A stretch of DNA of 64,000 nucleotides, from positions 1 through 64,000 of the forward strand of contig BCJC01000009.1 in NCBI GenBank assembly GCA_001600175.1. The letters are read 5' to 3'. Below the pieces are notes generated by a model. That model had not been told where the DNA came from and ran no database searches. It was given only the letters and a program-made list of their open reading frames with translations. Source of the DNA: Erythrobasidium yunnanense (Eukaryota; Basidiomycota; Cystobasidiomycetes; Erythrobasidiales; Erythrobasidiaceae). This document shows positions 46,793 to 63,903 of the stretch, one piece after another; within the stretch, counting starts at the first letter, position 1, and each line of letters starts with the position of its first letter. The position numbers and the translations under genes are program-made.

Positions 46793-48015
46793 ATGACAGC
46801 CCACACGGAGAACGCGAATCTATCCTTAATCCGGGAGCCCGTCATGGAATCCATCAACAGTCCTACTTCCTCGATTGGCTCTGTTTCTACTGAAACCACT
46901 TCCTTGAGCAGCACCTCAGATCCTTCCTCAGCTTCAAGCGTTCCGGGGACTGGAGATTGCGACCTCAAGCGTAGTCATGAAGTCTTTCTAGCGCTCGTCA
47001 GGATACTGCAAGATGATACACACTATATCGATGCTTTGAAAGGTGCGCATCGAAAGACGGGTCTTTTGCAAGTCTGACTTATTATCCTTGCCTTTCAGCT
47101 TCAATTGTTGAAGCATTGGAGGCCAATGATACATTGAAGAAGCCTACTGCGTGCAGTTGTCTTGCTCTGGGCGCCGTCAATCAGTGGGAAGATCCTTATT
47201 CGAGCACAATCGGACTCGCTCAACTTGTCGTCCTGACTGCATTGCTTGAGGCTTTCGGAATAGACAGAAGCGGGACGACTGTCGCAGACCCCGGCTTTCG
47301 AGAAGAAGACGTCAGCTTTCTCAGATCTCTCAACTTTAACGCTTCCGTCCTGGGTTTTGGGACTGAGGCAGAGCCAGATTTGCCTGTTTTGACGGAAGTC
47401 ACGCTGGCGTATCACCCAGGCTGCAGCGTAGCACAACTATACGAACGCAATTGGTCTCCTGAGGGTCTATCGAAGATAGTAACTTTAGAAGGGACAGATC
47501 GCACTCTCCGACAAGCCGTGGGCAGATACTTGAACTTCAGGGTCGCCGATCAGAGCGCCAGAGTCGCGGCATCGACTACTCGAAGTGAGCATGTCCCTAC
47601 ATCACCTTCCTGAGCTGACCGTTATGCATGTAGATCGAAATGCGACATTTGTTTCGGCAATCGAAGAGTCTGTGACAGAGCGTCAGGAACCGTCGAGACG
47701 AGCGAGTAAGTAACAGCTTCCGCAGTGGCGACCCTCCCACAGAGTAACACGTATACACATCCAGTGAGTATCTCTGAAGAATGGCGTCTGCCTTCACTAC
47801 CTTCGGTCGACGATCTAGACAATGTGGCCAAGCTGGCGCCACACTTTGAAGCCATGAATGCCGAAACGCTTCAGGGCGCAGTCGCCCAGACGCACACGCT
47901 GTGTTGGACCTCCGAGGCGCTCTTGAAACGGATGCCGCCGGCGTTTTGGAGACTCGTACCGGTGGTGACCAAGGTTTCTGGAGATATTGTGGTTGATCTC
48001 GAGATCATCAAGTGA
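46793..48015 (+). CDS. SRR1-like domain protein, array copy 1
   Basis: Four exons. Exon 1 is Ser/Thr-rich and ends in a helix HEVFLALVRILQDDTHYIDA. Exon 2 carries the SRR1-like domain: CSCLALGAVNQW (Gly-rich strand), IGLAQLVVLTALLEAFGID, DPGFREEDVSFLRSLNFNA, LAYHPGCSVAQLYERNWSPE and GLSKIVTLEG. Exon 3 is tiny (NRNATFVSAIEESVTERQ, ending RRA). Exon 4 is a separate module with EEWRLPSL, ETLQGAVAQTHTLCW and MPPAFWRL. In other organisms SRR1 proteins (plant SRR1, yeast Ber1) are tied to clock or microtubule phenotypes, with no proven activity. The usual V-Y-D-P of the family reads V-A-D-P here. Starts at 46793 or 46844 are possible. Confidence 0.8.
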
Positions 48016-48352
48016 AGCGCTAGGCGAAGCAGAGCCGACCTCACGGAGCACGAGTGGCATAAGCCGCTGCCTTTTACATCACACTTCCCTTTCTTCGGCA
48101 CTCGACATTATCAAGCAGACACAGTATACTCACGTGCAACTGACAGCAAATACAGCATACCTACTTACAAATGACAATGGCAGCAGCAGAAAGTCGAGTC
48201 ATGAGAGACTTTTCAACAGAATGGCTATGCTGATGCTTTTGTCGGGCCTGCAGGTCTGACTACAAAAGCCCCGCTGGTGCCAGTCGGGATTGCTCCTCAC
48301 AAACTACCTGCACACTTGAGATCCCCCACGAACAGCTAACGAACGGGTTTCC
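48016..48352. other. Gene-free stretch between array copies 1 and 2
   Basis: No gene is supported. A non-coding first exon of copy 2 could lie here. Confidence 0.45.
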
Positions 48353-49537
48353 ATGTCTTCAAGTTGAAAGCCCTCGAAAGGCTCTGTCAACAGCCGTGAC
48401 TCATCGGTCGCCCCTGTCAGTCTCGAGTAATGTCTCAACTCGCTCCTTAGCTTCAGGCGCTTCACAGACTGGCTATGCCAACTTTAAGCGTAGCCGTGAG
48501 GTCTTCCAGCAGCTCGTCAAGATACTACAGCACGATACAGGCTATCTCGATGCGCTGAAAGGTAGGGAGAAAGGATACTGCCCCTGATGCAGGCTGACGC
48601 TCCCGCACTCTAGGCTCAATCGTTCAGTCCTTGAACCCAAAAAGCACCTTGAAGGGGCCTACTGCCTGCATTTGTCTCGCTGTGGGAGCTGTCAATCAAT
48701 GGGAGAATGGACGGCAGATATGGTGTAGCACCGTTGGACTGGCTCAACTGATTGTTCTGATCGCGTTACTTGACGCTTTCGGAATAGACAGAAGCAGAAC
48801 CACCATATCAGATCCCCGCTTTCGAGAGGGAGATACATTGTTCCTCAAGTCCCTCGGCTTCAGTGCTTCGACCAGTGCTTTTGGAACCGAAGCAAAGCCT
48901 AACCTGCCGGAGCTCAAGGAAACGACACTGGTATACAATCCGGGATGTAGTATTGCACAATTATACCAACGCAACTTCACAATTAAGGGCCTCTCCCGAA
49001 TCATTACCCTACAAGGCACTGATTGCGTCCGGCACCAAGCTGTCGGTAAGCATGCGAATTTCAGAATTGATGGTCAAAGAGCCAAAGTCACAGCATCGAC
49101 TAGCAACAGTAAGTTCCATTCCAGGGTAGCGAACTGGTCTGATGCTGCCGCGCAGATGAAAGCCCGAAATTCATTGCCGCCATTGAGGAGTCTGTGTCTA
49201 AAGCTCAAGAGCGATCGAGACGTGCATGTTGGTCTGAGTTTGCTCGAACCAAATTCTACTCAGCTGACACGCTTGATTCGCAGTGAGTATCTCCGAAGAA
49301 AACCGCCTACCGGCCATACATGACTTTGTCAAGGAAGGCATCAAGGTGAACAAGTTGGCGACACACTTGGGGGCCATAGACGCCAGACATATCCAATACG
49401 CAGTGGGTCAGACGCACACGCTCTGTTGGGCTTCCGAATCGCTTCTGATGCGCATGCCGCCGGCGTTCTGGAGGATCCCCAAGATGGTAGCGAAAGTCTC
49501 GGGAAATATAGTCGTCGACTTACCACTAGACAAGTGA
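48353..49537 (+). CDS. SRR1-like domain protein, array copy 2
   Basis: It has the same four-part plan as copy 1. The Ser-rich first part holds the helix SREVFQQLVKILQHDTGYLD. The SRR1-like exon has TACICLAVGAVNQW, STVGLAQLIVLIALLDAFGI, DPRFREGDTLFLKSLGF, LVYNPGCSIAQLYQRNF and GLSRIITLQG. The last exon has SEENRLPAI, YAVGQTHTLCWASESLL and MPPAFWRI. The V-Y-D-P motif reads I-S-D-P. The start is uncertain. No Met opens the coding frame directly, so I propose ATG at 48353 with a 31-bp intron (gttgaa...caacag), which gives MSSTVTHRSPLS. An upstream exon is the alternative. The gap to copy 3 is only about 40 bp. Confidence 0.75.
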
Positions 49538-49576
49538 CTGTCTCTTTGAAACGATCGACTTAGGTATACTCGACGT

Positions 49577-51069
49577 ATGTATTTAAACAACGCCATCATG
49601 CTAAGCCTCGGCCGTGAGATCGATCACTCACCAGGCGAGACTGTCGGACTGCAGCAAATTTTCACAAAGCTGTCAAACCGACAAGACTCTCATGCATCGA
49701 GGCTGTGCCTACCGTTGAACAGGTTGGTGCGGAGCGACTACAGGACGCACGCTGACAGACCTTCAGGCTTTCTTTCCTCCATATCACAGATTACTAGTTA
49801 CCTAGCTACGAAAACCATCAAAGACCAGTTACCTCCACGATACACTACGTCCTCCTCCGCGTCTACGGCTTCGTACAGCACCTCTTCAGGTTCTGAACGC
49901 ACTAGTCGACGATCCTCAAGGTCAGGCGCAAAGCCCGTCACTTCCGCAGCTCTGGAGGCATCATACAACAGGCTCAAACGCGGTCACGAAGTCTACAAGG
50001 AGCTCGTCAGAATACTTCACCATGAGACGCCCTACATCAGCCAATTGAAGGGTAAGCATAACGCTCACTATTCTGTGTGGTCCCTTCGTTGACGATCCTG
50101 AGTCTTCAGCTTCCATAGCAGAGACACTGAAGACGGAATCTACACTCAAGAGACCCACTGCCTGCATATGCGTTGGATTGGGAAGTGTCAATCAGTGGAG
50201 TCATTTTCGCAAGGTGCAGGGCAGTACGGTCGGACTTACGCAGATGGTCATCCTGATTGCGTTGCTGGAGGCTTTTGGAATAGACAGACGCAAGACTACC
50301 GTATATGATCCTCGATTTCGGAACGCTGATCGACTCTTCTTGGAGTCTTTCCACTTCAACGCCCCGAAACGCGCATATGGGACTGCGCGCAATCCAGACT
50401 TTCCTGTGCTTTCGGAGGTGACGCTGATATACAGTCCCGGCTGCGATACAAGTCAACTATACCAACGCAATTGGTCACCGAAGGGACTCTCGCAGATCAT
50501 CACCTTGCAGAAGCCGAGTCTCAGATTGCATGCTGTGTACGGTCAACCTGCCAAATTCCGCATCGAGGGTCAAGCGGCCAAAGTCGTAGCATCCAGCAGC
50601 AACAGTAAGTAATCAACAGTCCACATGTTCAAGCCATATATATCCAGAAGCTAAGCCTTTCGGTCTAGATAAATTGCCCACTTATATTAACGTCATTGAA
50701 GAAACTGTATCAATGGAGTACGAGACAGAGAGGCGCGCCAGTGAGACTACTCACAAATCACTTCAGAGCCTCCCGCTGATCAGGGTCTGATCCTTAGTGA
50801 CAATCCAGGAGCAGAGGCCTTTGCCGGATGCCAAAGCGCTGTTTCGCAAGGACATCACAGCTAGTCAAGCATTACCTCACTTTGCAGCCTTGCGCACGGA
50901 CCTAATTAGGGGCGCTGCTCGGCAAATTGATCACGTCTGCTGGGGCAGTGAGGCGCTCCTGAAGCAGATGCCAGACGCGTTCTGGCAGCTGCCTCGTATG
51001 AGATCCTACAGTTCGGGTCGGTCTACGATCATTGACTTAGGGGTAGGCGAACAAGTAGCGTCTCGTTAG
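49577..51069 (+). CDS. SRR1-like domain protein, array copy 3
   Basis: It has the longest first exon of the array, about 155 codons, with a Ser/Thr/Arg-rich stretch and the helix HEVYKELVRILHHETPYISQ. The SRR1-like exon reads TACICVGLGSVNQW, STVGLTQMVILIALLEAFGI, VYDPRFRNADRLFLESFHFN, LIYSPGCDTSQLYQRNWSPK and GLSQIITLQK. It keeps the full V-Y-D-P motif. A tiny exon ending RRA follows. The last exon (about 50797-51069) is the most divergent C-terminal module: PLPDAKALF, RQIDHVCWGSEALLKQMPDA and FWQLPRM, with an extra tail GEQVASR. The start may be 49577 or 49598. Confidence 0.8.
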
Positions 51070-51130
51070 TTCCTTGTTCGGGTAGCTCGCAGATGTTCCA
51101 GTGAAATGTAACTTGAGCCACAACAAGGTA

Positions 51131-52810
51131 TCACACCCAAACGAAAGTACTTGGACTGAAAGAGGGTAGTGCGACCTCCGCGGCGAAAGACAGCTTGCCG
51201 GTTCTCTTGTCGCAACGGTAGACCAGGGCATTCTGAGTCAGCTGTCCACCGATGACCATGTACTCCTGGAGATGAAGGGATGATGTCAGCGTACGTCCAG
51301 CTTCAGATCTATCTCACTCACGTCGGCTGTCGCCTCGCCATTCATAGAGCCGGATGTTGACAGTTCAAAAGATCGGAGTTGACGAGCTGTCTTGATCTGA
51401 GCCGTCTGTACCCGCTTTAGTCGACCGGTCAGGGGCGAGATGGACCAGACTACAACAGTGTCGCCGGGCTATCAGACGGAGAAACTCAGCGATAGTCCGT
51501 AAGTGTGAAGAAACTCGGCTCACATCGCCAGACTTGATGTCCGCTTTGGCAGTCGCGTTACGCCCAGAAGCATAGAGAAATTTTCCGTCCTTTGATGTGT
51601 ACACCTCCGCGCCGCTTATCGAAGGATAGTCAATCTTCGTTCCCTTTGGGTAGATCGTTTGCCTGAAAGGCAAGTATCAGACACCATCAGAGACCGTTGC
51701 GAAACATGTTCATTCAAGCTTACGGAGCTTGGATGAGAACAAGATGACCAGTGGGCAGAACCTTGTAGGGCGTAACGTTCACAGACGCTTCATGCAGCAG
51801 GTACAAGAAATGCCCATCCGGAGAGAAAGAGAGGTGACGAGGAGCAGACCCCGTGCGTTGCTTGATGAAGACCACCTTGGAAAGCTTGCCAGATGAATCG
51901 CGCTTGTACACCTTGACCAAGTCCTCGCCATGATCGATTACGTAGACAAACGGCAGACGAGGGTGAGCGACGATTTGGTGCGGATGAGAGAAGTCCTGTG
52001 TCTCTTGTTGACCTGGCTTAGGCTTGTAACCAGGGTAGCTGAGTAGATCCTTGTTGATGCGTTCGCCAAATTTGCCGGTCTTTGCATCGAAGCGATAAGT
52101 TGAAGCTGTAGCTCCGAAGTCTGGGAAGGAGATCGTTCAGAGTAGCGCTTGATAGTAGCCGAATTGTCTTACAATTGGCAACATCAACCACCTTCCCATC
52201 GGGAAAAGAGCTCGTGTAGCACTGCCGTGCTTCATCAGCAATGTTGAAGGACCCCTTCTAATTCATTGCTCACTGCTGCCACCCCAGACTCAGGCTTGAC
52301 CGGTATACCGCCGGAACTTGCGCTGTCCAGGAAAGAGAGCTGGCCTGTCTTCGCGTCTAAAGCGTAGGAGGACACAAGGCCAGGACCTCCAGCATCATTC
52401 GATGCGAGTATCAGATCTGTCAGTAGAGAGCGGGAGTGTGAAGGAAAGGTAAGTGAAAGTATATTAGAATTAACAGATGGATGGCTCTTTCGCGCAGATC
52501 AACCAACCTGGCCTGGTAGCATGTCGCGACATCCAAGCTTTCTGCTGGCCGTCTGTGGTGTTGTACCATCCAAGAACGGACAGCTTGTTGGGCTTGACGG
52601 TATCATCGAACTCGAGAACAGCGTAATTTCCATCAGTCTTGTTGGCGTCGGGAACTGCTCGCAAGAACCGCTTCAGCTGAAGAGACTGCCCAAGACCCAT
52701 CGACGCTACTCACATCCTCCCACAAGGATCTTGCGCTTCAAGGCGCAATCTGTTGTTGCAGAAGCGAAGATAGGAGCGAGCAAAACACTCAAGACAGCAA
52801 CAGATCTCAT
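51131..52810 (-). CDS. Secreted lactonase-type seven-bladed beta-propeller
   Basis: The N-terminus MRSVAVLSVLLAPIFASATT is a signal peptide. Propeller strands follow, with DGNYAVLEFDDTVKPNKLSV, PRHLSFSPDGHFLYLLHEAS, MVKVYKRDSSGKLSKVVFIK and SKDGKFLYASGRNATA. The end is VYRCDKRTGKLSFAAEVALP and STFVWV. The repeated SxDGxFLYxxxE pattern is that of the 6-phosphogluconolactonase / carboxy-cis,cis-muconate cyclase-like family (lactonase, seven-bladed). The substrate cannot be told from sequence, and the secreted form argues against the pentose phosphate pathway. About seven introns; near 410 residues. It interrupts the SRR1-like array on the opposite strand. Confidence 0.82.
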
Positions 52811-53153
52811 ATCTAGAGGCTGCTGAAGGATGAAGAAGCAAGAGACAGAGCGAAGCCACAACATGCATCCTTTTATAACAGAGCTCGGTCTCGCGCCCTG
52901 ACTTTGTCGTGCGAAGCAGCTTTGGCCGTCGTATAGCCTAGCATAGCTTAAAGCAAGCAAACAAAGAGCTGATAACATGGGCAGCACCGTACGCTTTGAG
53001 AAGCCTGCCATGTGGAAGATTGAAGCATTCCATCCGATGCAGTGGTCAAGAGTGGTGTCAAGGCTGCGCAGGACACCCGAGCAGAACCTGCCTGGGAGCA
53101 GACTGGACATTTGCACATCCAGTCATACCACCTAAAGCTGAAAGAAAGACGAC
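52811..53153. other. Divergent promoter region, lactonase and array copy 4
   Basis: No gene is supported. The two flanking genes start away from each other, so this 343-bp interval must hold both promoters. Confidence 0.5.
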
Positions 53154-54402
53154 ATGCTACCTACACGAAGGCCGTCAATCGCTTCAAGCCATTGCTTCGG
53201 CCGGAAGTCTGTCTCTCCGTCCTCGACTCGTCCGAAGTCTGTCTCTCCTCCTTCGACTCGCCCTGCGTCCGCTTGCAGCAGACGCTCCTCTCAATCATCA
53301 TCCTCAAGTGTACGCTCTGATGTCTCTGCCAGCATCAAGTACGGCAAGGAGGTCCTGCAGGAACTGACGCGAATACTCAAGCACGATACGCGCTATGTGA
53401 GGACCCTGAAAGGTATGTCTAAGCGTTCCTTCCAGCTCAGAGAGGCGTTCTGTTGACGCGCTGCCGGTAGAGACGATCGCAAAGACGCTTACTCCAGGCT
53501 CGAGCCTCAAAAAACCTACAACCTGCATCTGCCTCGGACTAGGAGCAGTCAATCGGTGGACCGATGCCACGCAAAGCAGAGAAAGTACTGTCGGACTCGC
53601 TCAACTGGTCGTATTGATCGCCATACTCGAAGCCTTCGGCATAGATCGGCAACGAACGATCGTATATGATCCCTGCTTTGACCATGCTGATCGAGACTTC
53701 CTGAGCTTCCTGAAGTTCAATGCACCAGGAGAAGCATTCGGAACAGACTCTGAACCGATCTTCTCCCAACTATCCGAAATCACGCTTGTATACCGTCCGG
53801 GTTGCGGTGTTGATGGTCTTTACGAGCGTAATTGGACGGCAGAGGGACTCTCCCGCATCGTCGGTCTCCAAGGCGCCAACAGTGATGCTTCACGCGCGTT
53901 GGGCATGCTCCCTGTCTACAAAGTTGATGGAAAGGCAGCTAGAGTCGTGGCATCACAGAGTCAGAGTGAGTCAATCCGATGCGGTTGCGTACAATAGCTG
54001 ACTGAGTATGTGCAGACGTGAACAACACGTTCCTTCCAGTCGTTGATGCGAGTCTAGCAAGACGAAAGGAGCCAATCAGGCGCGCCTGTAAGTGACATCC
54101 GCGACTCTTGATAACAGAACCACTGACGTACATTGCTCGTGGTGATAGCGACGATTTCGGACGAACTGTCTCTGCCTTCGATAGACGATTTTCTTCATGC
54201 TGGCATCAAAGCAAAGAAATCTGGAGCACATTACAACTATATCAACAGCGAAACTCTCAAATATGCGGTCGGTCAGACTCGAGTGCTCTCATGGGTTCCG
54301 CTTGCGCGAGCGGAAGTAATGCCCCCAGCTTTTTGGAACCTCCAGCCAATGCGGGTCGGAATGCTAGGAAGGGTAGAGGTCGATCTCACTATTGATGCTT
54401 AA
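53154..54402 (+). CDS. SRR1-like domain protein, array copy 4
   Basis: It starts MLPTRRPSIASSHCFGRKSV, a Ser/Arg/Pro-rich head with a short internal repeat (KSVSPPSTRP type), then the helix KEVLQELTRILKHDTRYVRT. The SRR1-like exon has TTCICLGLGAVNRW, STVGLAQLVVLIAILEAFGI, VYDPCFDHADRDFLSFLKFN, LVYRPGCGVDGLYERNWTAE and GLSRIVGLQG. The small third exon ends IRRA. The C-terminal module reads DELSLPSIDDFLHAGIKAKK, LKYAVGQTRVLSW and MPPAFWNLQPM; the usual Cys of LCW is Ser here. Three introns have clear GT-AG ends. About 350 residues. Confidence 0.82.
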
Positions 54403-54809
54403 GCTTTCCCAATAATCGCAGCTCTGATACGCCAGGCAGAAGTCTGGATTGCCTTGCCTTACCGCTGCAACTCCTTGAAGGCTACAACAGTAACTGCATA
54501 AGACCACACAATGCTAACAATGCTCCTGATGATCGAGTCTGCCAACCGAGTCAAGAAGCATGTGCGCGGAACGGTCGGCCAGCAACACAAGGAATCAGAG
54601 CGTCAAGGCTGTGCCACAATCAAATTTCCACGACAGCAAGGTGGTCCTTGTGCTTGCTCTCACTCTGCAACCAAGACCGCCAGAGACCTGCAAGAAGAAT
54701 GCAATTCAGTCGAAAGACATGAAGCACCTCCATCGATGGCGCAGTAGACAAGTCAGCATCGTCGTCTCCTCGCGATCACAGTATAGCAGGTGCTGGCGCA
54801 GCATCAACG
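54403..54809. other. Upstream region of array copy 5, shared with copy 6
   Basis: Words in the same order recur upstream of copy 6: gatcgagtc, gccaaccgagtca, ggtcaaggct-like, tgcttgctctcac and a cag before the coding frame. Open frames here have no protein support. A 5' exon ending near 54788 (cag) is possible. Confidence 0.6.
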
Positions 54810-55915
54810 ATGAGCTCGTCAGCAAAGACAACCGTCGCCCATTCTGACAATTTTGAGAAAAGTCGAGAGGTTCTTGAGGAGGTTACGAGCATACTGGGTC
54901 GTGACACAAGCTATCTACAGGCACTGAAGTGTAGGTCTGTTATAGCTTGACGTTGAGATGTACTCGCTGACGTTGTGTTTCCAGCTTCCATCGCTATGTC
55001 ACTCAAGGAGGAACCGACACTCGAGAAACCTACCGCCTGCATCTGCCTCGCTTTAGGACCGGTCAGTCAGTGGCAAGATGACACTGAAATCAAGAAGAGT
55101 ACCATCGGAATCGCGCAGCTTGTCGGCCTCATCCCTATGCTCGATGCCTTTGGAATAGCTCGACACAACTGCACAGTCTATGATCCTATCTTTCAAGAGG
55201 GCGATCGACTATTCCTGGAGTCTATTGGATTTAATGCACCAAAGGAGGCGTATGGCCCTGCGTACAAGCCGATCTTTCCTGTCTTGCAAGAGATAACCTT
55301 GGTATACAGTCCCGGATGGAAATTTAACGATCTGTATGCATGCAATTGGTCCGTCGATGGACTGTCTCGCATCATCAACGTGAGAGGGGCGGACAGTACG
55401 CTTGTACAGGCGCCGGGCCTCCTTCCGATCTTCACAGTCAATGGTCAAACAGCGCGGATGATTTCAACAACCAGTCAAAGTGAGCATATCACATGAAGAC
55501 TTATTTCCTGCTGCCCTGACTATACCTATTCGTAGACGCAGTGAAAGATCATCTGGCTATGGTCGACGAAAATATGTCGCAGAAACAGGAGCCAGTCCGG
55601 CGCGCAAGTCAGTAATACAGCGGCGACAGCGGCTCTCTACTAATACGCAACGTGTATACAGTGGTGATCGCGGATGAACGACCTCTACCCCTAATTGGCG
55701 ACTTTCTTCCGGGCAGCATTCGAGCATCCAAAACGAGTTCACATTTTTCCTTCTTCGACCAAGAGACACTCTATATTGCGCTTTACACGACTCGCATGCT
55801 CTGTTGGACACCAAAGCTGCGGTTGTCTACAATGCCCCGCGCTTTTTGGAGGATTAGTCCCATGCAAGCTGGGACTGCAGGAGGCGTAGCGATCGAGTTA
55901 AGTACAGACCCGTGA
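54810..55915 (+). CDS. SRR1-like domain protein, array copy 5
   Basis: This copy starts MSSSAKTTVAHSDNFEKSRE with a short head and the helix REVLEEVTSILGRDTSYLQA. The SRR1-like exon has TACICLALGPVSQW, STIGIAQLVGLIPMLDAFGI, VYDPIFQEGDRLFLESIGFN and LVYSPGWKFNDLYACNWSVD. The Cys of the P-G-C motif is replaced by Trp. GLSRIINVRGAD follows. The third exon ends VRRA. The C-terminal module is ADERPLPLIGDFLPGSIRAS, YTTRMLCWTPKLRL and MPRAFWRISPM. If a 5' exon exists upstream, the head would be longer, as the open frame without Met back to 54723 suggests. Confidence 0.8.
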
Positions 55916-56309
55916 GACGTCAGCAGGCCCGGGTTCTATTTGATGTATTTTGACTGAAAGTACGAAATGCCGAAATCCACGACATTCTCCTTAACCTTTC
56001 CCAGTCAAGCGGACATCCTGTTTCCATCTCCTGACGATCGAGTCGCCAACCGAGTCAGCTCAGCAGGCATGTCTGCACAGCGGTCGACCAGTGCTACCTG
56101 GGTTTGGACGGTCAAGGCTATGCAGCAGACCTGCATAAAATTTCACAGTAGCAAGTTGCTTGCTTGCTCTCACACCACAATCTTAATCGAAAATCATCAT
56201 CTGCCTCGATCAACAGCCTTAGACGCAATCCACCCTTTCTCCTCCTCGTCACCGTTGTGTTTCAGGAGCCAGTGCATCTTCAACCGGGAGTTCGTCTTCA
56301 CGGGCATCG
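55916..56309. other. Upstream region of array copy 6, related to that of copy 5
   Basis: It is diverged but collinear with 54520-54809 (shared words as listed for that region). It includes a pyrimidine-rich run and a cag just before an in-frame Ser-rich segment, suggesting a possible intron end near 56266. Confidence 0.55.
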
Positions 56310-57386
56310 ATGACCGAATCAAACAATTTGGAGCACAGTCGAGCGGTTTTCGCGGAACTGGTCCGAATACTCAAGCATGAGACAGGATATGTGCAAGCAA
56401 TACAAGGTATGTCTATGGTAATTCATATCAAGTCTGCGGTCTTAGACCCGTGATCCCCAGATGCATTAGCACATTTGCTCAAGACGGATGTGACTCTCAA
56501 GAAGCCGACTGCCTGCATCTGCCTCGCATTGGGAGTGGTCAACCGATGGGAGGACAGTATCAAGACTCGAGCAAGTACAGTCGGTCTCGTGCAAGTCATC
56601 GTCCTGATCGCGGCCCTGAACGCCTTCGGAATCCCTCGAAACAGAACGACCGTATATGATCCTGCCTTCAGCGATGCGGATCGACTATTCCTCCAGTCTC
56701 TGGGCTTTCACGCACCAAAGCAAGCGTTCGGAACCCGCGAGAACCCGGAGCTCCCTGTACTATCAGAAGTTACTCTGGTCTACAGCCCCCGTTATACCAT
56801 AAGTCAACTTTACAAACGCAACTGGTCGCTGGAGGGCATTTCCAAAATCATCTTTTTGGGGAGTCTAGCAGGAACCTTGAGAGAGTGTAGGGGTGCGTGT
56901 GTGAGCTTCTCTGTCGGCGGGAAAAAAGCTAGAGTAGTGGCAACAACTAGCAAGAGTAAGCTAATTTGCAGCAGTATCGTCTCTATCTGACCATACGCCT
57001 GCAGATACAAATTTCATTGGCCATGTCGTGGCTGCTGAAGAGTCTGTGTCGGAAGCCGACGAGCCAGAGAGACGCGCGGGTAAGGCGCACCCGATTCTTT
57101 CACGCTACAGCAGCTGACTCGATACTACGCAGTGGCGATCTCAGAGGAGAGGCGTTTACCATCTATACAAGACTTTCTTCGCGGCGAGGTCAAGATCGTG
57201 GAGAGAGGCAGTCATTATGAAGGCATCAATGCAGGCACCCTTCTCTATGCAATCGGACGGAACCAAGCGCTTTGTTGGGCCGCCGAACCACTCCTAAAAC
57301 AGATGCCCGCAGGCTTTTGGGAGATTCATCCCATGGAGCTCAGATCGGCAAAAGAGATTGACGTAGCCCTTGAAGTGTGTGAGTGA
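56310..57386 (+). CDS. SRR1-like domain protein, array copy 6
   Basis: It starts MTESNNLEHSRAVFAELVRI, continuing LKHETGYVQAIQ. The SRR1-like exon has TACICLALGVVNRW, STVGLVQVIVLIAALNAFGI, VYDPAFSDADRLFLQSLGFH and LVYSPRYTISQLYKRNWSLE. The P-G-C motif is altered to P-R-Y. GISKIIFLGS follows. The third exon ends ERRA. The C-terminal module reads SEERRLPSIQDFLRGEVKIV, LLYAIGRNQALCWAAEPLLK and MPAGFWEIHPM. Three introns, same positions as in the other copies. This is the last array member; the next gene, GAPDH-like, is convergent. Confidence 0.8.
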
Positions 57387-57535: not shown

Positions 57536-58916
57536 CTAAGATTGTCAAAGTTTGTCGGTACTGGCGACGCGCGCCCTGAGGCTGTGGGTGTGCCTGCTTG
57601 AGATACAGCTGGAGTGGCCGCTACGCCCAAGTCGGTCTTGTACATGTAGCACGCCAAGTCAAGCAGGCGCACAGAGTATGCCTGGCCACGCAAGGTACCT
57701 TCAGCAACTAAGCTCCCCTGCCCTGAGTGTATTCGTACTCACGAATTCGTTATCGTAGAAAGCAATGATCTTGGCTGTTGTTTCGTTGAGCATGACTGTC
57801 GCGGCTGAATCGACGATACAGCTTTGCTCCCAGCCGAGGAAGTCAGAGGAGACCAGCTCATCATCGTTGACTGTGATGACCGTAGTGAGAGGACCGATCT
57901 TCCAGTTTGAACGGCCAGCTGCAGCTTCCCGAAGCGGATGCAGGAGTTCTTCCTTGTCTTTTACGGGACGACTGAGGCCGACCGTCAAGTCGACCATCGA
58001 AACGTTGTTGACAGGCACCCGCACAGATATACCGGTGAATTTGCCAGCTAGCTCTGGAAGGACCAGCTTAACGGCCGTGGCAGCGCCTGTCGTCGTAGGG
58101 ATAATGTTACTGGCGACTGCTCTCCCTAATCGCCTACTCTTCTTGCTGTAGCCATCGAGGATATGCTGAGATGAGGTGGATGCGTGAACGGTGGTCATCA
58201 TGCCGTACTCGATACCAAAGGCATTCTGCAGAACTTTCGCTAATGGTGCCAAGCAGTTTGTTGTGCAAGACGCATTGGACACCACAGCTTGGGAAGAATC
58301 GTAATCACGACGGTTGACTCCGACTACGATGGTCTTCGTCTTTGTGTCCCTAGAATTACGGCAATCAGCATGTATGATAGTGCATGTGGAGAATATAATG
58401 CGTACTTTGCTGGTGCAGAGATGATGACCTTTTTGGCTCCGCTCAAGACATGCTGATATGCCGCATCGTACGTGGTAAGCTTGCCCGTCGATTCGATGAT
58501 GTATTCTGCTCCCGCACTCTTCCAGTCTAGCTTTGTCGTATCTCTCTGGCTGAAGAGCGTAATTTTGCGACCTCGGAAAACGAGGTAATCTCCGTCGATA
58601 GTAAGATCCTTAGCTTGTTTGCAGAAGCCATGGGTAGAGTCGTATTTGATGGCGTGGAGCAGGTATTCGAGACTGGGAGCGGTGTGATTGATAGCGACAA
58701 CTGAAGCATCGTGTCAGTTCACTCAGTTCCTGTCTCAGCGCACGTGCCCGTACCTTCGACGTCGGTCCTCTCTAGCGAAGCTCGAAAAGCAGTACGGCCT
58801 GCCGAGTATACATCAGCCAGCTAGTCTACTTACTTCTGTCACGGATTCCTACCGATTCTGCCAAATCCATTGATACCAAGCTTGCAGACGGGTGAAGGCT
58901 CGGTGAGTGAAACCAT
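57536..58916 (-). CDS. Atypical glyceraldehyde-3-phosphate dehydrogenase
   Basis: GAPDH oxidises glyceraldehyde-3-phosphate with NAD. The start MVSLTEPSPVCKLGINGFGR (58916) carries the NAD-binding GxGxxG and joins over two introns to TAFRASLERTDVE and VAINHTAPSLEYLLHAIKYD. The catalytic block SNASCTTNCLAPLAKVL has the active Cys, TTVHASTSSQHILDGYS has the active His, and TGISVRVPVNNVS has the phosphate-binding Arg. Beyond the usual end the protein continues: after EF an intron (about 57743-57690) joins AYSVRLLDLACYMYKTDLGV to a 30-residue extension rich in T, P, A and S, ending NFDNLRIH. Sequence divergence from the housekeeping enzyme and the added tail suggest a specialised paralog. Confidence 0.88.
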
Positions 58917-61766: not shown

Positions 61767-63903
61767 ATGACGGACAAGCGGGCGCTCGACTATTCGTACG
61801 ACGACGACGAAGATGGCCAGGCGTACGAGGCGTATGTGCCGCTGAAGAAGCGCAGGGAGGAACAGCTTAAGCGACTGGCAGCTGGCGGACGAACGAGCAG
61901 GAGCGCAACGCCAGGCGGCAACGACAGCCAGAATGAACAGCAACAACAGCAAGAACAGCTGGATCCAGAAGACTTGGCTGAGCAGGAACGAGCGAGGAAG
62001 CGAGTAGAGAGAACGCTGCTCGCTGAAGCGCAAGAAGTGAAGGCGCAAAAGGCGATAGAAGGTGCGCCGAATAGCATATACATTATATAATACACTCGAT
62101 ACTAAACTCTAACCTCAGATGCAAGCAAGACCGAGCAGGACAAGAAGCGCGAGGAAGAAGATAAGATCCTCAAAGCTATCGCAGCAAAGCGAAAGCTGGC
62201 TTCAGATCTGGAACTTGCACAAGGCGTATCATACGCAGAACCATTACCTACATCGTGCGTCATCTCCCCACGAAAGCCTTGAGTATCCTGGAAAGACAGC
62301 TGACGATTTGTCATCAGATGGACCGCACCACATTACATTCGCAAGCGGACAGAAGCGCAGAACGACAAGATACGAGCAAAGAATCACATCATGGCGGAGT
62401 GCCAGCCAGACGATGTGATCCCGCCTCCAATACCCGACTTCGCAGATATGAAGCTACCGCAACCTCTGCTCATCTGGCTAAAGGAGAAGAAGATCAAAGC
62501 CCCTACGCCTATTCAGCTGCAGGGCATACCTGTCGGCTTTGCGGGCAGAGATATGATCGGAGTCGCATTCACTGGATCTGGAAAGACTCTGGCTTTCTCC
62601 TTACCTATCCTGATGCGAGCGCTGGAGGAAGAACGTAAACTACCTTTTATCGCTGGAGAAGGTCCTGTAGGGTTGGTTGTCTGTCCATCCCGAGAGTTGG
62701 CGAGACAGACGTACGAAGGATTCGTTTCGATGGCAGAGAAGCTCGTTCAAGGCGGATATCCGCAAGTTCGCAGCCTGTTGGCGATTGGAGGCATTTCCAT
62801 GGCAGACCAGCATCACGTCCTAAGCGGAGGCGTACACATTGTCGTCGCTACACCTGGACGTCTGCAGGATCTACTGAAGAAAAAGACGATCTCGCTCGAT
62901 GGATGCAAGTTCCTATGTATGGACGAAGCAGACAGGATGATAGATATGGGTTTTGAAGACGATGTCCGAAACATCATGTCGTATTTCAAGAATCAGCGGC
63001 AGACACTCCTCTTCTCGGCTACCATGCCTGTCAAGATCCGTGATTTCGCACAACAGTCGCTCATCAAGCCTATCATCTTGAATATTGGAAGAGCAGGAGC
63101 TGCTTCCATGGACATCATCCAGGAAGTCGAGTATGTCAAGCAAGAAGCGAAGATGGTCTATCTCCTGCAGACGCTCGAGAAGACACCTCCTCCCGTCATT
63201 ATCTTCTCGGACAACAAGAACGAAGTAGATGATATACAAGAATACCTCCTGCTCAAAGGAGTAGAAGCGGTGGCTATACATGGAAGCAAGACGCAGGAAG
63301 AGCGTGAATATGCCATTCGGTCATTCAAAGCTGGAAAGAAGGACGTCATGGTCGCTTCAGGAGTCGCTTCTAAAGGTCTGGATTTTGCAGAGATCCAACA
63401 CGTCATCAACTTTACTATGCCGAAAGAAATTGAAGATTACGTCCATCAGAGTAGGTCAGAGGCTCTAGGAAGCTTTCACAGTGCTAACCATGTGCTTGTA
63501 TAGTTGGTCGTACGGGACGTTCGGGAAACACCGGTATTGCGACAACCTTTGTCAACATGAACACAGCCCCGGAAACTTTACTCGATCTGAAGTATCTGCT
63601 GAAGGAGGCCAAACAACGGTACGTTTCCCTCTTTCTTCCCCTTTCCACTGTCGCTCCAAAGCTCGGTATGATGAACGTTGACATGTCATGCTGTTTGTCT
63701 CTCTCCCTTCGCAATTACGCAGAATTCCGCCGTTCTTGGAGACTATCGACGATCCGAACGAGGGGCAAGGCCGAGCGATGGGATGTCAAAACTGTGGTGG
63801 TCTTGGTCATACTATCTCGAACTGTCCGAAGCTCGAAGACACGCAGCGGAGGCAGATGGCTACGGTCAGGGTATCCACGATGGGAGGAGGTGGATCGTAC
63901 TAG
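61767..63903 (+). CDS. DEAD-box RNA helicase DDX41 (Abstrakt)
   Basis: This is an ATP-dependent RNA helicase; DDX41 relatives act in pre-mRNA splicing. The N-terminus MTDKRALDYSYDDDEDGQAY is acidic and is followed by a coiled Gln/Glu/Arg-rich region. The core starts IPDFADMKLPQPLLIWLKEK and has the Q motif PTPIQLQ, motif I FTGSGKT, Ia PSRELARQ, GG, Ib TPGR, motif II DEAD (MDEADRMIDMGF), motif III SAT, and motif VI, which splits over an intron as YVHQ-IGRTGRSG. The C-terminal zinc knuckle CQNCGGLGHTISNC (CCHC) is the DDX41 hallmark. Four or so introns. About 620 residues, as expected; ends VRVSTMGGGGSY. Confidence 0.95.

Follow-up and report, generated by a model that had tools for sequence, protein, structure and literature searches.

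Six old, diverged SRR1-like genes in tandem in Erythrobasidium yunnanense

This study focused on a run of neighbouring genes in a 64,000-nucleotide stretch of Erythrobasidium yunnanense DNA (the window), which could represent either several doses of an ordinary SRR1 protein or a set of relatives that have taken up other work. SRR1 proteins, whose biochemistry is described as unknown, are reported from plants, animals and fungi (PMC10219947, PMC12455975). A sequence-only reading of the window had placed six plus-strand genes with a common four-exon layout at positions 46,793-57,386, and start, end and strand were all correct: the interval runs from the ATG of copy 1 to the final base of the copy 6 stop codon, and each gene splices to a single open frame (Table 1). 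All six have four exons, separated by three GT-AG introns of 47-64 nt that are in phase 1 throughout and occupy homologous positions. The second exon measures 495 nt in all copies but copy 1 (486 nt). The tiny third exon, of 72 nt except in copy 6 (75 nt), codes at its end for RRA in every copy, as had been noticed, and the fourth, counted with its stop, spans 251-272 nt.

Table 1. Positions of the SRR1-like genes, of features within and beside them, and of other genes in the window
Feature	Position	Strand	Details
SRR1-like copy 1	46793-48015	+	exons 46793-47042, 47099-47584, 47634-47705, 47765-48015; 352 aa; PF07985 E 1.4e-12
SRR1-like copy 2	48221-49537	+	exon-1 open frame 48234-48561; exons 48614-49108, 49156-49227, 49284-49537; PF07985 E 3.3e-13
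SRR1-like copy 3	49577-51069	+	exons 49577-50051, 50110-50604, 50669-50740, 50798-51069; 437 aa; PF07985 E 6.4e-15
SRR1-like copy 4	53154-54402	+	exons 53154-53412, 53471-53965, 54016-54087, 54149-54402; 359 aa; PF07985 E 7.1e-16
SRR1-like copy 5	54810-55915	+	exons 54810-54930, 54985-55479, 55536-55607, 55662-55915; 313 aa; PF07985 E 1.9e-12
SRR1-like copy 6	56310-57386	+	exons 56310-56406, 56461-56955, 57005-57079, 57133-57386; 306 aa; PF07985 E 7e-13
Repeat in copy 4 head	53204-53263		30-nt unit, tandemly repeated once
D-P motif, shown for copy 4	53668-53673	+	exon-2 columns 66-67
P-G-C in place of P-H-C, shown for copy 4	53797-53805	+	exon-2 columns 109-111
5'-flank stretch, copy 5	54523-54663	+	matches 56028-56173
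5'-flank stretch, copy 6	56028-56173	+	matches 54523-54663
Lactonase-match ORF	51720-52136	-	PF10282
GAPDH C-terminal domain	57704-58609	-	PF02800, E 2.2e-50
DDX41-like DEAD-box helicase	62304-63500		closest PDB chain DDX41, E 2.4e-153

When the six copies were aligned, 44 of the 164 columns of exon 2 were invariant. Several of the motifs first quoted for the family turned out to be consensus rather than exact strings, YAVGQTH being exact in copy 2 alone and GLS being replaced by GIS in copy 6, while W-x8-MPxxFW is held in all six. Some irregularities might suggest that certain copies are decaying: the exon-1 frame of copy 2 contains no ATG, and the intron-3 donors of copies 2 and 5 are non-standard (GTTGGT and GTCAGT, respectively). 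However, none of the six spliced frames is interrupted by a stop or a frameshift, and a start for copy 2 could be supplied by a short 5' exon at 48221-48253 (donor GTCTGA, intron 48254-48335), a possible structure and the single option that a scan returned, so that decay appears improbable.

The likeness of the copies is far beyond chance, because cross-copy tblastn gave E-values down to 1e-87 and all six proteins match the Pfam SRR1 profile (see below); chance similarity was rejected by the tblastn comparison. Along the array the exon-2 cores are spaced at 1,524, 1,496, 3,361, 1,514 and 1,476 bp. The long step between copies 3 and 4 contains an ORF on the minus strand that matches a lactonase profile (a 7-bladed propeller, E 2.8e-21), which probably belongs to a gene lying at about 51.2-52.8 kb and interrupts the regular spacing; because it separates copies 3 and 4, the array is a 3+3 arrangement. 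No seventh copy was found by tblastn in the remainder of the window, where other matches up to E 1 were all at E 0.18 or worse. The window also carries, on the minus strand, a GAPDH C-terminal domain, which may represent a divergent GAPDH because its best PDB match was 182 bits over about 200 residues. It further holds a DDX41-like helicase, a type of protein not known from budding or fission yeast, and a possible though weak taxonomic marker that would point to a basidiomycete. The short introns and the gene density are in keeping with a fungal source. No relative of exon 2 or of copy 2 exon 4 turned up in viral and prokaryotic contigs searched by pattern and tblastn, a result that says little about fungi.

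Regular spacing is the one feature that could point to an assembly artefact of one or two loci, the outcome that the sequence-only reading had named as fatal to its proposal. It is refuted by divergence: with synonymous sites saturated or nearly so, and no pair above 63% identity in the SRR1 part, these are not assembly duplicates, and an artefact is barely conceivable. Protein identity among the copies is 48-63% in the conserved helix plus exon 2 (the SRR1 part) and 28-59% in exons 3-4 (the tail). By the Nei-Gojobori method, dS over the whole coding sequence was saturated in 7 of the 15 pairs and was 1.71-3.06 in the other eight, values high enough to be rough, with omega at 0.17-0.31. For exon 4, omega was 0.15-0.45 in seven pairs, the remaining eight being saturated. 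With saturated pairs set aside, no omega above 1 was obtained over the whole genes or over exons 1, 2 and 4; for exon 3 one pair reached 1.28, over at most 25 codons. The copies are therefore old, constrained genes, with dN well below dS in the non-saturated pairs.

Trees of the copies are in keeping with tandem growth. With the heads removed, whole proteins gave sister pairs 4-5 (support 98/96) and 1-2 (85/91), which are in both cases neighbours. The SRR1 part alone supported 1-2 at 95/94 and 4-5 at just 73/79, and the tail alone supported 4-5 at 99/98, with copies 1, 2 and 3 in an open, weak group (72/73). In the 5' flanks of copies 5 and 6 lies a common stretch with 69% identity across 153 alignment columns (E 1.3e-9). 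Together with the homologous introns and the regular spacing, these sister pairs and the common flank support an old tandem expansion.

The proposed membership of the SRR1 family was supported by a profile search of the kind that had been suggested for it. All six proteins exceeded the curated gathering score of PF07985 (24 bits), at 47.8-59 bits and E 1.9e-12 to 7.1e-16. In none of them did the match cover the whole domain: it stopped at profile position 102-120 of 172 in every copy, leaving the last 52-70 positions unmatched. As a yardstick, a putative Arabidopsis SRR1 sequence was used, which scored 147 bits over positions 16-172 and is thus at least a good family member. Searched with the array's own profile, this plant yardstick gave a weak match (hhalign probability 22%, E 0.00096; in HMMER, 2 of 500 shuffles outscored the plant sequence), so the family link rests on Pfam. 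NCBIfam gave no match at E 1 for the three proteins submitted (two exon-2, one exon-4), and sequence searches of the PDB with copy 6, the exon-2 profile and the exon-4 profile returned nothing credible (best E 0.67, 0.17 and none, respectively).

A conserved module of some 85 residues, encoded by exon 4, closes each protein; 11 of its 89 alignment columns are invariant, including a W and MP..FW. This module had been described as extra to the SRR1 domain. Its conservation stands; the word "extra" needs qualifying, since the Pfam match ends about two-thirds of the way into the domain, and by sequence the module thus occupies the place of the domain's end. It may be a replacement, or a domain end that has diverged beyond recognition. 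No Pfam match to exon 4 was obtained in any copy at a threshold of E 10 (few matches above about 0.1 pass the filters of HMMER), and exon 4 showed no relation to the C-terminus of the plant yardstick (hhalign probability 0.9%). AlphaFold models built from six-row alignments were poor, with mean pLDDT of 44.3 for exon 2 and 46.2 for exon 4, the latter being the structure check named in the earlier reading, and Foldseek searches with them gave nothing at E 0.001 or better. Methyltransferases and FolD were among the top exon-2 rows (best E 0.27) and were not taken as evidence. The S. pombe SRR1-like domain is reported to resemble methyltransferases by Dali (PMC10219947).

Within exon 2, two motifs bear on function. 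The D-P pair is invariant in all six copies and would be equivalent to D111,P112 of S. pombe Srr1. The histidine of the P-H-C motif of the plant yardstick, which lies at profile position 96, falls at column 110, where copies 1-5 have Gly and copy 6 has Arg, a loss on which the sequence-only reading had not remarked. The register was supported in several ways. Fragments of each copy that run one residue past the conserved Pro, to the G or R, gave matches halting at that Pro as position 95 and leaving the G or R out; extending the copy 4 fragment to the next Cys carried the match to position 97 and raised the score from 53.5 to 56.5 bits; and both hhalign and HMMER alignments pair P-G/R-C/Y with P-H-C. 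Copy 1 has a His immediately ahead of the Pro (column 108), which could be a displaced histidine. The other five copies have no His within 20 columns on either side, the nearest being at column 83 or farther, or at 140. In S. pombe, the Srr1 mutants D111A,P112A and H148A are both reported to show reduced rearrangement rates and raised damage sensitivity (PMC10219947), and H148 is probably the P-H-C histidine, judging from its spacing after D-P. That histidine is not required by the Pfam definition, and its absence bears on function more than on membership.

These results can be set against the view that the array retains ordinary SRR1 function, with its roles in genome stability, microtubules, light or the clock, and provides dosage or stage-specific expression, the histidine being dispensable in a fungal subtype. 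Lack of the histidine may indeed be common throughout a fungal SRR1 subtype whose members still perform the usual role, and the retention of D-P in all six copies, as well as the constraint between them, is in keeping with this. SRR1 gene number also varies elsewhere. The family had been said to be encoded normally by one or two genes, which does not hold generally: Acacia is reported to carry 17 SRR1 domains spread over 15 genes, against 1-3 copies in the other angiosperms compared (PMC9565413), and Brassica napus has five SRR1 genes (PMC11979331). C. elegans, humans and mice are each credited with a single one (PMC12455975). Against ordinary function stand the impaired S. pombe Srr1 mutant H148A (PMC10219947) and the unrecognised domain end of all six proteins; identity of 48-63% is also lower than one would expect of duplicates kept for dosage. 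On balance, ordinary function is rather unlikely. Fungal SRR1-domain genes appear in expression tables for Malassezia (PMC11481519) and Fusarium graminearum (PMC5133918), and in a variant table for Fusarium verticillioides (PMC5488033). A fungal SRR1 tandem array was not found reported in the open-licence literature, which is not proof of its absence.

The N-terminal heads differ strongly between copies. Ser-rich heads had been ascribed to the whole set; they are present in copies 1-4 (58-133 residues, 27-41% Ser+Thr, the length in copy 2 being measured from the upstream stop as its exon-1 frame has no ATG) and absent from copies 5 and 6, which have just 15 and 7 residues ahead of the conserved helix. 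In the head of copy 4, the two units of the 30-nt tandem repeat are 87% identical, a sign of what may be local expansion of the Ser-rich head. A tandem array with variable heads and faster-evolving tails could also be a diversifying defence or self-recognition set, perhaps directed against RNA viruses or foreign nuclei. The F. graminearum SRR1-domain gene is reported to rise about 40-fold on hypovirus infection (PMC5133918), and nematode viro-9 affects virus replication, though by helping the virus (PMC12455975). This literature link comes, however, from distant fungi and animals; omega was never above 1 for whole genes or for exons 1, 2 and 4 in the non-saturated pairs; and no repeat domain passed the Pfam cut-off, copy 3 having a sub-threshold HEAT_GCN1 match (E 0.15). 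A defence or self-recognition role is accordingly considered a long shot.

The explanation we favour, at a probability of roughly 45%, is that this is an old tandem array of diverged SRR1-fold adaptors or regulators that no longer perform the usual SRR1 task, and not six housekeeping doses; the array would consist of diverged, probably refunctioned SRR1 paralogues. The proteins would be intracellular (inspection of copies 1 and 3-6 revealed no hydrophobic start) and would employ the SRR1 fold as a scaffold for binding. The absent histidine and the altered end would reflect loss of the ordinary task. What each copy binds, or when, might be set by its variable head and its faster-evolving tail. 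That the copies could act as diverged adaptors or regulators is suggested by analogy with rose RcSRR1, which is reported to bind CSN5B and to lower cullin deneddylation, an instance of SRR1 working via protein binding (PMC11979331). A more specific history is offered tentatively, and may well be wrong: the array would be a new SRR1 branch that exchanged the last third of the domain for a new C-terminal one, lost the key histidine and was then amplified in tandem, giving refunctioned adaptors with copy-specific partners.

Six paralogues that keep D-P, are without the P-H-C histidine and have a tail of their own amount to natural variants; they could separate the roles of the two motifs and could reveal how functions are distributed over the domain. 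Compared with the PF07985 family at large (Arabidopsis SRR1, S. cerevisiae Ber1, S. pombe Srr1 and animal SRRD), the array shares the first 102-120 of 172 positions and D-P, but differs in the absent histidine, the 52-70 unmatched final positions and its own C-terminal module. Acacia pycnantha resembles it in that its SRR1-domain genes have expanded within the lineage and sit on long branches, but is a plant, with 17 domains in 15 genes and no other domain type in those genes, and the accessible part of that report mentions neither a tandem array nor a new C-terminal module (PMC9565413). S. pombe Srr1 offers the closer fungal parallel in its SRR1-like domain with D-P (D111,P112), but it is described as the product of one srr1 gene, with disordered termini and a functionally needed H148 (PMC10219947).
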